Position numbers and translations under genes: made by a program
IMG/VR virus record: IMGVR_UViG_3300004457_000127
Coordinates: 1 to 27,667 of that record
Reading direction: 5' to 3' (one strand)
Origin: a virus
Length of the DNA: 27,667 nt
In this document: piece by piece, positions 7,485-11,273 of the stretch
Numbering within the stretch: position 1 is the stretch's first letter
How the letters are laid out: each line of letters begins with the position of its first letter
Notes under the pieces: generated by a model
Told to the model about the DNA's origin: nothing
Database searches by the model: none
What the model saw: only the letters and a program-made list of their open reading frames with translations

Positions 7485-7493
7485 TTATTTTTA

Positions 7494-7521
7494 ATTATTT
7501 TACTTTTTTCTCGACAGTCAA
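7494..7521 (-). promoter_or_regulatory. leftward promoter for the packaging/structural operon
   Basis: Read leftward, TTGACT (7521-7516) and AATAAT (7499-7494) are separated by 16 bases, each matching five of six bases of the sigma70 consensus. Initiation about seven bases later would fall only a few bases from the terS ATG (7484), giving an almost leaderless message. The -35 hexamer shares base 7516 with the -35 of the rightward promoter, so the two are back to back. Confidence 0.5.
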
Positions 7522-7540
7522 GAAAAATCTATGGTATAAT
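7511..7540 (+). promoter_or_regulatory. rightward early promoter with extended -10
   Basis: TCGACA (7511-7516; five of six to TTGACA), an 18-base spacer and a perfect TATAAT (7535-7540) preceded by TGG, an extended -10. Transcription should begin near 7547, exactly where a repeated leader element (GTCTCCTTAAGG) begins. It drives the noncoding leader and probably the rightward early block. It is the best promoter match I found in the window. Confidence 0.75.
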
Positions 7541-7545
7541 CTATT

Positions 7546-7626
7546 GTCTCCTTAAGGGATCCAAGCCTTAACGATTGTTTGTTAAGTTCAATTCCTTATT
7601 AAGTAAATAAAAAACCTTAAGGATAC
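7546..7626 (+). repeat. CCTTAAGG leader element, copy at the early transcript 5' end
   Basis: GTCTCCTTAAGG at 7546-7557, an inverted repeat CTTAAC/GTTAAG (7567-7572 with 7581-7586, loop of eight), and CCTTAAGGATAC at 7615-7626. The same order (GTCTCCTTAAGG, a hairpin, then CCTTAAGGATAC) is at 10436-10506. A looser copy, CCTTTGAGGATAC, follows at 7645. In RNA the CCTTAAGG palindromes can pair with each other. The function is unknown: leader stabiliser, attenuator or operator. Confidence 0.55.
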
Positions 7627-7641
7627 CGTCATTATAACATA

Positions 7642-7678
7642 GGGCCTTTGAGGATACTATTTTTTTGAGGCCCGTTTT
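7642..7678 (+). terminator. possible weak attenuator in the early leader
   Basis: GGGCCT (7642-7647) pairs with AGGCCC (7668-7673) across a 20-base, T-rich loop and is followed by GTTTTA. The stem is only six pairs and the T-run is short, so this would be a leaky terminator or attenuator at best. It may simply be one more helix of the folded leader RNA. Confidence 0.25.
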
Positions 7679-7725
7679 ATGATATATATGTGTAGCTCCG
7701 CGTGTGATGCCGACCCCCGCCACCC

Positions 7726-8110
7726 CTAACGGTTTTTAGATTAGGTAAGTCTAACGATCCATAACGGTTTATTGTTTGGCAAAGGCTAACGGTTTTTAGA
7801 TTGGTAATATGAGGAGAATATTTTGCTCGCTCAGAGGTGAATCATCACGGCTACATTAGGGGGATCAATATGGGTCGGACGGGTCAGAAATCCTAACGGT
7901 TTTTTGATTAGTAATAAGGAAAACCCGAAATTGCGAGGATGGACGCTGTGAGCTGTGAATAAGATGTGAGTACTAGGAGACCAAACCGAAATCGGACGTC
8001 TTGTAGGGCATCTGAGGGGGCATAGCGTGGATTCGCCCTTTACTTAAAACCGTTATTTTTGTTGGTAATCAACGACTTACGACATTTTATAACGGTAATT
8101 AGATGAGTAA
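7726..8110. repeat. iteron-like ~22-bp direct repeats, candidate replication origin
   Basis: Five direct copies of a ~22-base motif start at 7726, 7761, 7786, 7893 and 8089. The first and third share the 17 bases CTAACGGTTTTTAGATT exactly and continue with (A)GGTAA. The fourth differs by one base in that stretch and ends in AGTAA. The second and fifth share the TAACGGT core and more divergent tails. A reverse-orientation core, ACCGTTAT at 8049-8056, is perfectly complementary to ATAACGGT at 8089-8096. Spacing is irregular (25-196 bases), unlike a CRISPR. Arrays like this in a gene-free region between divergent operons commonly mark phage origins or regulator-binding sites. A DnaA-box match lies inside. 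Because the region is probably transcribed, an RNA role is also possible. Confidence 0.65.
7954..7962 (-). promoter_or_regulatory. DnaA-box match within the repeat region
   Basis: TGTGAATAA on the plus strand reads TTATTCACA on the minus strand, fitting the bacterial DnaA box TTATNCACA. It sits between the fourth and fifth direct repeats. One nine-base match can be chance. It gains weight because this phage encodes a protein resembling the DnaA DNA-binding domain (16244-16552) and a DnaB helicase. Confidence 0.4.
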
Positions 8111-8197
8111 ATATGGGTAGGAGTAAGATATGTATCACGATTACATAAGGTGTTGATAGTCAAGGACTTATGATTATTTTCAATAAAAGTGAAAAAA

Positions 8198-8506
8198 AGA
8201 TGGTTTAGATGTTGACTTATGGTGAATAGTCCTCCATAGTCTTAGTTAGATTCATACTGAAACTACTACAATTTCGAGAGGTGAGAAGAGCTTAATGTTA
8301 GTACTACTCTCGGAGGTTAAGCAAGGAGTACCGATGGATCAGATCGCACTTAGATCCCTAGGCAATGTCGAGATGACACGCTAAGCAGAAGCTTTATATA
8401 AAAAACCATCTAGGAGGAGTCCCGATCTACCGCAATGGGATAGCAACCAAGACGAGACATTCAATAAGACTCAGTAATGAGCCGTGTACTGCACGAGACT
8501 TTAAAA
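8198..8506 (+). ncRNA. structured noncoding RNA domain upstream of the ribozyme
   Basis: There is no open frame here but dense base-pairing potential. A perfect 9-bp long-range helix, AGATGGTTT (8198-8206) with AAACCATCT (8403-8411), closes a domain containing: a hairpin GAC-TATGG/CCATA-GTC with one bulge (8214-8241); an H-type pseudoknot, stem CGAGAG/CTCTCG (8275-8280 with 8307-8312) whose loop carries GCTTAA (8290-8295) complementary to TTAAGC (8317-8322); GGATC/GATCC (8336-8340 with 8353-8357); and small hairpins at 8366-8378 and 8383-8394. Beyond the closing helix are TCCC/GGGA (8420-8440), CTCA-GTAA-TGAG with a GNRA-type loop (8470-8481) and CGTG/CACG (8483-8495), then the ribozyme. More helices lie upstream (8049-8096, 8129-8147), so the RNA may span the whole leader from ~7547. 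I recognise no known RNA family. Confidence 0.55.
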
Positions 8507-8584
8507 GGTTAACTGATGAGGGTTGCCCGAAAGGGCTATAAATATTACCCGAAACACCGACCGCCAATTGGCGGTGTCTTAACC
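8507..8584 (+). ncRNA. type I hammerhead ribozyme
   Basis: All core elements are in order. Stem I 5' strand GGTTAA (8507-8512); CTGATGA (8513-8519); stem II GGGT/ACCC (8520-8523 with 8547-8550) capped by an inner GCCC-GAAA-GGGC hairpin; GAAA (8551-8554); stem III CACCG/CGGTG (8555-8559 with 8572-8576) enclosing an A and a CC...GG hairpin; then TC (8577-8578) in the classical GTC cleavage triplet; then stem I 3' strand TTAACC (8579-8584), the exact complement of GGTTAA. Self-cleavage is expected between 8578 and 8579. The open end is stem I, hence type I. It would separate the upstream leader RNA from the early mRNA 24 bases before the first ATG. Every invariant core base of the hammerhead motif is present. 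Confidence 0.92.
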
Positions 8585-8602
8585 AATAAACCAATTATTA
8601 TT

Positions 8603-8818
8603 ATGGACAAAAACATTATAGAAAAAATACAAAATCGTTACGAAAGAAGAGATAAAGCTATTAATTTCATAAGAGTAGGACAAGAAAAAAGAGATGAACT
8701 CGACCCAATAAAGAATAAAGATGAAATAGCTCACATCAATCATATGATTGACGTTGCTACTTTTCAAATAATCTGCGAGCTAGACGAATTGCTAATGCAA
8801 GTAGAGGTTCAACTGTAA
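8603..8818 (+). CDS. small helical protein, first gene of the rightward block
   Basis: A 71-residue charged, helical protein of unknown function ('MDKNIIEKIQNRYERRDKAI', then 'RVGQEKRDELDPIKNKDE', ending 'CELDELLMQVEVQL'). The frame stays open upstream to an ATG at 8516, but that start would lie inside the hammerhead core and encode the ribozyme, so I take the ATG at 8603. It is preceded by ATTATTATT with no Shine-Dalgarno. After ribozyme cleavage its message would begin 24 bases upstream with TTAACC. As the first gene after the early promoter it may be a host-takeover protein, which is inference from position. Confidence 0.75.
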   Translation: MDKNIIEKIQNRYERRDKAINFIRVGQEKRDELDPIKNKDEIAHINHMIDVATFQIICELDELLMQVEVQL

Positions 8819-8827
8819 ATAAAATCA

Positions 8828-8853
8828 GCCCGAAAGGGCGGTGTCTTAACCAA
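8828..8853 (+). repeat. hairpin plus hammerhead-type cleavage-site element, copy 2
   Basis: Hairpin GCCC-GAAA-GGGC (8828-8839) followed directly by GGTGTCTTAACCAA (8840-8853), identical to the 3' stem III / cleavage / stem I segment of the ribozyme (8573-8586). The catalytic half (CTGATGA) is absent nearby. It lies between the stop of one small gene and the start of the next, nine bases before its ATG. The ribozyme arms (GGTTAA at 8507-8512 and ACACC at 8554-8558) are complementary to it. Confidence 0.8.
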
Positions 8854-8861
8854 TTATTATT

Positions 8862-9119
8862 ATGAAAAATTACATTTATTATAAATCAAACAAAGAATTA
8901 AATCGTTCAGCAACAATCCATTCTTTTTGCTACGATAGTGGTGAAACTTCTTACCACATCATAGCGAAAGAGGGTCAGCCTAAAACATATATTTGGGAGA
9001 AGCGTGCCGAAGATATAGTAGTGTCCACACATCGTAAGAGTTTAGATAAAGCAATCTTCTGTGTTAAACAATGTTTAGGGGATGACTGCGTAGTCGATGG
9101 TATCTACGAACAAGCATAA
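8862..9119 (+). CDS. hypothetical early protein
   Basis: An 85-residue soluble protein with mixed α/β character: an aromatic N-terminus ('MKNYIYYKSNKELNR'), β-type centre ('ETSYHIIAKEGQPKTYIWEK') and a C-terminal helix with two cysteines ('KAIFCVKQCLGDDCVVDGI', a third just after). No family is recognised. The ATG follows TTATTATT, without a Shine-Dalgarno, nine bases after the second copy of the conserved cleavage-site element. The protein shows no visible similarity to its neighbours, so the shared upstream element is not explained by duplication of the gene. Confidence 0.75.
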   Translation: MKNYIYYKSNKELNRSATIHSFCYDSGETSYHIIAKEGQPKTYIWEKRAEDIVVSTHRKSLDKAIFCVKQCLGDDCVVDGIYEQA

Positions 9120-9126
9120 ACCACGA

Positions 9127-9152
9127 CCCCAAATGGGGGGTGTCTTAACCAA
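9127..9152 (+). repeat. hairpin plus hammerhead-type cleavage-site element, copy 3
   Basis: Hairpin CCCC-AAAT-GGGG (9127-9138) followed by GGTGTCTTAACCAA (9139-9152). The stem bases differ from copies 2 and 4 while pairing is kept, compensatory variation that supports a real RNA hairpin. It sits just after a stop codon (9119) and nine bases before the ATG at 9162. There is no catalytic half. Confidence 0.8.
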
Positions 9153-9161
9153 TTATAAATT

Positions 9162-9521
9162 ATGAAAGACTTAATAAATGAAAAGATCGCACTGCGGTCA
9201 CTATTCAAGCACCTCACAGACGGGGGCTTTTCAATCAAATCAGTCGAGCCACAAGAAGTAGAGGATGATGATGACATCTTACTCGTCACAAAGATTACAG
9301 ACTTCGGTACGATTATTGACCACTACTTTGTATACGATGACGACTACATCCTTACCGTTGAGAAGGACGGCAAGACAGCCAGAATCCTTCAGACTTGGTA
9401 TGGAGGGGTCGAGGGTCTATACGCCAACGCATCCGTTCACAAAGACATATGCGATGACTTAGACAAGGTATCTGAAGATTGGTACGTCGAGATGCTAGAG
9501 AAAGAGATTCAATGGGACTAA
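9162..9521 (+). CDS. acidic hypothetical early protein
   Basis: A 119-residue acidic protein of unknown function. It opens with a helix ('MKDLINEKIALRSLFKHL'), then β-strands broken by a poly-acidic turn ('EVEDDDDILLVTKITDFG', 'DHYFVYDDDYILTVEKDG'), and ends with a helix ('DLDKVSEDWYVEMLEKEI'). Codon use is more G/C-rich than in the two upstream genes, which may mean a different origin. Its leader carries the third copy of the conserved hairpin/cleavage-site element, and its start is in the AATTATG context with no Shine-Dalgarno. Confidence 0.75.
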   Translation: MKDLINEKIALRSLFKHLTDGGFSIKSVEPQEVEDDDDILLVTKITDFGTIIDHYFVYDDDYILTVEKDGKTARILQTWYGGVEGLYANASVHKDICDDLDKVSEDWYVEMLEKEIQWD

Positions 9522-9528
9522 ACCATCA

Positions 9529-9554
9529 GCCCTAACGGGCGGTGTCTTAACCAA
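9529..9554 (+). repeat. hairpin plus hammerhead-type cleavage-site element, copy 4
   Basis: Hairpin GCCC-TAAC-GGGC (9529-9540) followed by GGTGTCTTAACCAA (9541-9554). The loop differs from copy 2 while the stem and 14-base tail are identical. It lies seven bases after the stop at 9521 and 25 bases before the ATG at 9580, farther than in copies 2 and 3. There is no catalytic half. I found no further copy downstream. Confidence 0.8.
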
Positions 9555-10880: not shown

Positions 10881-11273
10881 ATGATTACATTCGAACAAAT
10901 AATATTAGCAATAGCACTAGTCGAAAGTTCCTTGAATCCCCTAGCAGTAGGGGACAACGGGAACGCAGTCGGCTACCTACAAATTACACCCGCTGTAGTA
11001 CAAGATGTTAACACATTCTACGGCTCGACCTACTCACTCGATGACAGATATGATGTGGTCAAGTCAGTGAATATGTGCAAGAAGTATCTCAACTATTGGG
11101 GTGATGTATACGAACAGAAGACGGGGCTTGAACCAACTCCAGAAATTTACGCCAAGATGTGGAACGGTGGATGCTACGCTTGGAAGAAGACTGACCCCAA
11201 GGTGTTGAAGAATCTTGACATCTATTGGGATAAAGTGTTGACTGAAATACATAGACTTTATTATACAAAATGA
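10881..11273 (+). CDS. lysozyme-like / lytic transglycosylase endolysin
   Basis: This 130-residue protein has a lysozyme-superfamily (SLT-like) pattern. Glu15 in 'AIALVESSLNPLAVG' is the likely catalytic acid, followed by 'NAVGYLQITPAVVQDVN' (residues ~28-44), matching the GxxQ(x)xP signature of goose-type lysozymes and transglycosylases. 'EIYAKMWNGG' near residue 93-97 corresponds to the second conserved region (A..YNGG). Single domain, no signal peptide; the short hydrophobic N-terminus is part of the fold. It would cleave peptidoglycan at lysis or assist DNA entry. No holin is recognisable next to it. Encoding a lysin in the early-direction block rather than the late operon is a little unusual. 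Confidence 0.8.
   Translation: MITFEQIILAIALVESSLNPLAVGDNGNAVGYLQITPAVVQDVNTFYGSTYSLDDRYDVVKSVNMCKKYLNYWGDVYEQKTGLEPTPEIYAKMWNGGCYAWKKTDPKVLKNLDIYWDKVLTEIHRLYYTK

Follow-up and report, generated by a model that had tools for sequence, protein, structure and literature searches.

Hammerhead ribozyme and repeated substrate halves in a phage operon

The window, by which we mean the whole 27,667-nt stretch of viral DNA analyzed here, carries an operon headed by a type I hammerhead ribozyme, and the cleavage strand of this ribozyme recurs in front of three later genes (Table 1). The leader RNA carrying the ribozyme probably starts near the promoter-like sequence listed there. The small genes behind the ribozyme and the sites gave no PHROG family match. 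The gene at 9162..9521 has homologues that follow a site in other phages and a leader without GGTGTC in the relative L017. Elsewhere in the window, a gene at 10881-11273 resembles a transglycosylase (weak PHROG match, E 8e-4). Positions 7490-8500, a gene-free stretch of about 1 kb, separate divergent operons; conserved stretches within it, e.g., ~7990-8035 and 8058-8090, are kept in relatives, including L017 and L215, and the region may hold an origin, promoters, or structured RNA.

The 14-mer GGTGTCTTAACCAA occurs in four exact copies in the whole window (8573, 8840, 9139, and 9541), on the + strand only, and the sense strand of the window holds no further copy of it and no copy of the 12-base core with one or two mismatches. 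By our own arithmetic, about 2e-4 exact occurrences of the 14-mer would be expected in 27.7 kb on both strands, so the four copies are not due to chance. A sequence-only reading of the window had pointed out the three downstream copies, none of them with a CTGATGA half and each just before a gene start, and had named GGTTAA (8507-8512) and ACACC (8554-8558) as the ribozyme arms. Our scan bears out all of these points, with the genes starting at 8862, 9162, and 9580.

The type I core CUGANGA ... GAA-A15.1 ... U16.1-H17 is complete (8513-8519, 8551-8554, and 8577-8578), as it is in 12 of 12 ribozymes of the group described below, and stems I, II, and III, with the flanks entering via stem I, are possible in all 11 aligned sequences. 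In stem II, two of the four pairs covary in a compensated manner, with a covariation score reached by none of 500 shuffles; stems I and III are frozen, which is expected if their pairing partners sit at several places. Stem III contains a bulge of 4 nt and faces competition from an alternative hairpin. An AA 3' of stem I, a candidate for the contact between the stem I flank and loop II, is present in 215 of 304 members of the phage hammerhead family. The complete core suggests self-cleavage after C8578. In Rfam, the window ribozyme weakly matches the RAGATH-1 hammerhead (25.7 bits, E 0.19), as does that of L360 (28.3 bits, E 0.02), both under the curated threshold of 56.3 bits. Loop II of the window ribozyme and of that in L002 contains an inserted hairpin (8525-8536, GCCCGAAAGGGC), which is the same as the hairpin 5' of orphan site 1 and is absent from other relatives.

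Table 1. Features of the operon head and of the three orphan substrate sites.
Feature	Position	Strand	Remark
Promoter-like sequence TTGACT-17-CATAGT	8212..8240	+	consensus match and alignment with TTGACA in relatives
Type I hammerhead ribozyme	8507..8584	+	complete core, stem II covariation, weak Rfam match
Ribozyme stem I	8507-8512/8579-8584	+	
Ribozyme CTGATGA	8513-8519	+	
Ribozyme stem II	8520-8523/8547-8550	+	
Ribozyme GAA	8551-8553	+	
Ribozyme stem III	8554-8558/8573-8577 plus 8563-8565/8570-8572	+	
GACC linker, part of ACCG-ACCGCC duplication	8559..8562	+	invariant in 12/12 group ribozymes
Alternative hairpin ACCGCC-AATT-GGCGGT	8560..8575	+	predicted -11.2 vs -8.3 kcal/mol for hammerhead stem III
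Cleavage-strand 14-mer of the cis ribozyme, GGTGTCTTAACCAA	8573..8586	+	
Expected ribozyme cleavage position	3' of C8578	+	predicted from core
Small gene behind ribozyme, 71 aa	8603..8818	+	no family match
Hairpin GCCC-GAAA-GGGC	8828..8839	+	
Orphan substrate site 1, predicted cut between 8845 and 8846	8840..8853	+	predicted dimer is a full trans hammerhead
Small gene behind site 1, 85 aa	8862..9119	+	no family match
Hairpin CCCC-AAAT-GGGG	9127..9138	+	
Orphan substrate site 2, predicted cut between 9144 and 9145	9139..9152	+	
Gene behind site 2, 119 aa	9162..9521	+	
Hairpin GCCC-TAAC-GGGC	9529..9540	+	
Orphan substrate site 3, predicted cut between 9546 and 9547	9541..9554	+	predicted dimer favors other pairing
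Small gene behind site 3, 71 aa	9580..9795	+	no family match

Orphan sites in related phages

Relatives were gathered via terminase and exonuclease similarity and by DNA pattern scans of viral contigs. The group with the ribozyme comprises 12 distinct ribozymes including that of the window (11 further contigs), plus one contig that begins inside the operon; these phages are described as aquatic and carry up to five exact site copies before later genes. Altogether 33 sites without a catalytic half are found in 11 contigs, all on the operon strand and 22-57 nt upstream of an ATG. For 31 of the 33 a ribozyme is in view; it is single and always upstream, the sites lying 214-1810 nt behind it. The 12-mer that pairs with the ribozyme, i.e., the helix III half, the cleavage-site C17, and the helix I half, is identical at all 33 sites. 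In an analysis that took in 23 sites, conservation drops immediately on either side of the 12-mer, and the sense strand of the group operons contains no near-miss orphan. The 4-bp G/C hairpin that the sequence-only reading placed 5' of the copies is present at all three in the window, where it indeed varies (GCCC/GGGC, CCCC/GGGG) next to an unchanged target; it is not obligatory in the group, in which 9 of 33 sites are without a stable one.

The orthologous genes behind the sites are ~78% identical (~22% of bases differ), and the stretch from the promoter-like sequence to the ribozyme has been swapped wholesale between phages. A gene preceded by the ribozyme in L215 is preceded by an orphan site in L002, indicating that the ribozyme belongs to the operon head and not to a gene. 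Ribozyme arms and sites show no variation within the group, so covariation between arms and sites cannot be scored. The ribozyme was found neither in cellular genome contigs nor in a named phage; the nearest isolate by terminase is Phage C75C1, at 74% identity.

Two ribozyme-free relatives, L003 and L015, are also without the site, and in L017 related genes come in a similar order, with repeated leaders ATTAACCACAACTATATAAAAACATTATG. A survey of 133 loci from relatives that do not belong to the group turned up 45 gene starts with a TTAACCA leader, in no case preceded by GGTGTC; among relatives, GGTGTC stands before TTAACCA at gene starts only together with the ribozyme. Relatives that keep the 14-mer without any ribozyme, which the sequence-only reading had named as counter-evidence, did not turn up, and the ribozyme is present on every site-bearing contig that extends to the operon head. 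Since among these relatives the TTAACCAA leader exists without the ribozyme and GGTGTC never does, TTAACCAA is an older leader that stem I builds on, and GGTGTC tracks the ribozyme. That GGTGTC is tied to ribozyme carriers matches the need of a substrate, not that of a leader.

According to the pattern scans, hammerheads form a large family in phages, many of which carry several; nearly all lie directly upstream of a gene, with an ATG within 60 nt in 286 of 304. Across 324 distinct phage hammerheads, exact orphan substrate sites accompany 10 of the 12 group ribozymes versus 0 of 312 others; the two group ribozymes without them are on contigs that end ~125 nt or less from the ribozyme. L137, L175, L113, L128, and many other loci contain operons in which a gene follows each of as many as about nine complete hammerheads, and in such phages stem I is often shared among the ribozymes. 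The three multi-hammerhead loci scanned (L113, L104, and L128) gave no Rfam match at gathering thresholds. Elsewhere among the hammerhead phages, a search for orphan sites matching different arms returned only one convincing candidate, a lone site GATGTCTTAACC at 982 of L113, before a gene without a ribozyme, whose pairing with the arms of three ribozymes on the same contig includes a G-U; it is possibly an independent orphan site. Stem III of the L113 ribozymes is tightly closed.

Duplicated stem III and the predicted trans complex

Stem III of the group, CACC-GACC-GCC-loop-GGC-GGTG with an ACCG-ACCGCC duplication, is confined to this group among the 324 phage hammerheads, and variants of the duplication with other bases were sought and yielded no additional system. 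Because ACCG is doubled, GGCGGT has two possible partners: pairing with the first copy gives the hammerhead stem III, and pairing with the second gives a perfect 6-bp hairpin. The latter is predicted to be better than the hammerhead stem III by 2.9 kcal/mol, to hide the ribozyme's own 3' strand, and to free CACC.

As controls for the refolding and dimer predictions we used the natural ribozymes of other phages. After cleavage, the predicted mean probability of the ribozyme's own stem III is 0.22 in the group versus 0.95 in other phage hammerheads. Pairing each cut ribozyme with its own site on a separate strand gives a complete trans hammerhead as the minimum-energy dimer for 12 of 12 group ribozymes and for none of 304 others. 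For the actual orphan sites, a full trans hammerhead dimer is predicted at 28 of 31, including 8840 and 9139 and excluding 9541. Separate strands complementary to both arms are present at 33 sites, with 12 of 12 bases kept. By prediction only, the arms would be free to bind substrate after self-cleavage, and the duplicated stem III makes trans action structurally plausible.

Binding between ribozyme and site is predicted to be weak: secondary structure, without tertiary contacts, gives a median of -6.8 kcal/mol at 37 °C and a Kd of ~4-18 uM, so transcript proximity or loop contacts would need to help. The sites are no more accessible than their surroundings, and the alternative hairpin is predicted to compete also with cis folding before cleavage. 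The duplication and the orphan sites coincide in one lineage, so their correlation amounts to one evolutionary event.

Proposed operon processing, its alternatives, and known systems

We favor, with moderate confidence, a model in which one ribozyme processes the whole operon in trans, cutting itself, refolding, and then cutting the other sites. The sequence-only reading had already suggested that the upstream RNA could cut the message at the other sites, and the sequence evidence supports this idea. Briefly, the early operon would be transcribed from a promoter near 8212-8240, and the hammerhead at 8507-8584 would cut itself after C8578. The freed 5' leader RNA is predicted to refold, the second ACCGCC copy pairing with GGCGGT, whereby the arms GGTTAA and ACACC are released; these are predicted to bind GGTG-TC-TTAACC before the later genes and to re-form the hammerhead in trans. 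Cleavage between C and U at each site would then produce mRNAs beginning with 5'-OH-UUAACCAA, in most cases 16-17 nt ahead of the AUG, and an upstream piece often terminated by a G/C hairpin. A single ribozyme would presumably thereby do the job of the arrays of complete ribozymes in other phages, with some benefit to the phage. On the more specific proposal of a natural trans-acting hammerhead, whose arms are freed through the duplicated stem III strand after self-cleavage and which then acts as a processing enzyme for genes of the same operon, our judgment is evenly balanced.

The sequence-only reading had itself offered a shared leader as the alternative, and this stands in so far as TTAACCAA is a leader that exists without ribozymes (45 cases, repeated in L017), to which the four gene starts in the group with the TTAACCAA leader and without GGTGTC can be added. 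If the 14-mer served translation or stability as a leader and nothing else, the ribozyme would have arisen at one copy by way of the catalytic half and the other copies would never be cut. However, the ribozyme-pairing half GGTGTC is found in 0 of 45 ribozyme-free leaders and is invariant in 33 of 33 orphan sites, and the stem III duplication and its limitation to the same phages are left unexplained; we regard this explanation as unlikely. The orphan sites could instead be decayed ribozymes, or spacers carried along by cassette recombination, without present function, as related phages have arrays of complete ribozymes, genes shuffle between slots, and phages swap the whole stretch upstream of the ribozyme. 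Decay, however, should leave partial cores and mismatched arms, whereas the operons show no near-miss orphan on the sense strand and the 12-mer is exact in 33 of 33; flanks and genes have diverged, and we find this explanation quite unlikely.

It is also conceivable that the sites are competitors or sensors that bind the released ribozyme without productive cutting, thereby tuning self-cleavage or downstream translation. The arms are predicted to be able to bind each site and the two stem III forms are close in energy, but the cleavage surface is retained in full at the sites, C17 and the flanking A included, which exceeds what binding needs, and such a role seems very unlikely to us. We give hardly any credence to a further explanation, that the site is kept because it complements the D arm and anticodon stem of a host tRNA-Glu (GGTTAAGACACC), which the ribozyme arms would mimic. 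The match of site plus hairpin to antisense tRNA-Glu does extend over 16-17 nt, compared with at most 13 for other phage hammerheads, and the only other matches of the extended 17-mer are antisense tRNA-Glu genes; however, the match was found post hoc, TTAACC is a common stem I in the hammerhead family, the hairpin part is missing at nine sites, and these phages are without a tRNA gene. The match is probably a coincidence or possibly reflects origin from a tRNA gene. The sequence GGGCGGTGTCTTAACCA, i.e., the hairpin plus site 1 (8828-8853), is identical to part of the tRNA-Glu antisense strand in L396 (at 14616) and ~40 other contigs, and the ribozyme's alternative hairpin is identical to the tRNA-Glu anticodon stem.

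If processing in trans by the single ribozyme is true, it would show a route from a self-cutting RNA to a true enzyme, give phages protein-free operon processing, and make the function of phage hammerheads directly testable with short synthetic RNAs.

Clustered hammerheads in prophages flank small genes in phage operons and have been proposed to process long transcripts into shorter mRNAs, and the arrays that were tested self-cleaved (Perreault et al. 2011, PMC3088659). Each site in those clusters has its own complete cis ribozyme, whereas here the single complete ribozyme has behind it only substrate halves that lack a catalytic counterpart. RAGATH-1 (Rfam RF03152) is similar in type I topology, core flanks, and stem III; the scores, however, are 25.7-28.3 bits versus the threshold of 56.3, and orphan sites are outside the Rfam model. 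The SAS/ESAS elements of cluster K mycobacteriophages, as presented in the sections of the paper drawn on here (PMC3203893), are short repeats before many small genes, some with an upstream inverted repeat, and are linked to translation initiation. Those sections mention no ribozyme, while among our relatives the GGTGTC-bearing leader occurs only with the ribozyme; our sites thus depart from the SAS/ESAS pattern, as given there, of a gene-start repeat that may have an inverted repeat and lacks a ribozyme. Natural hammerheads are described as exclusively cis-acting (review PMC6155905), and in the open-access literature we found no case of a natural trans-acting hammerhead, including multi-substrate action by so small a ribozyme. 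The closest design is that of engineered trans hammerheads, in which GUC likewise lies between two arms and the substrate is a strand of its own; here, in contrast, the split would be natural, one ribozyme would serve several substrates, and stem III could refold to free an arm.
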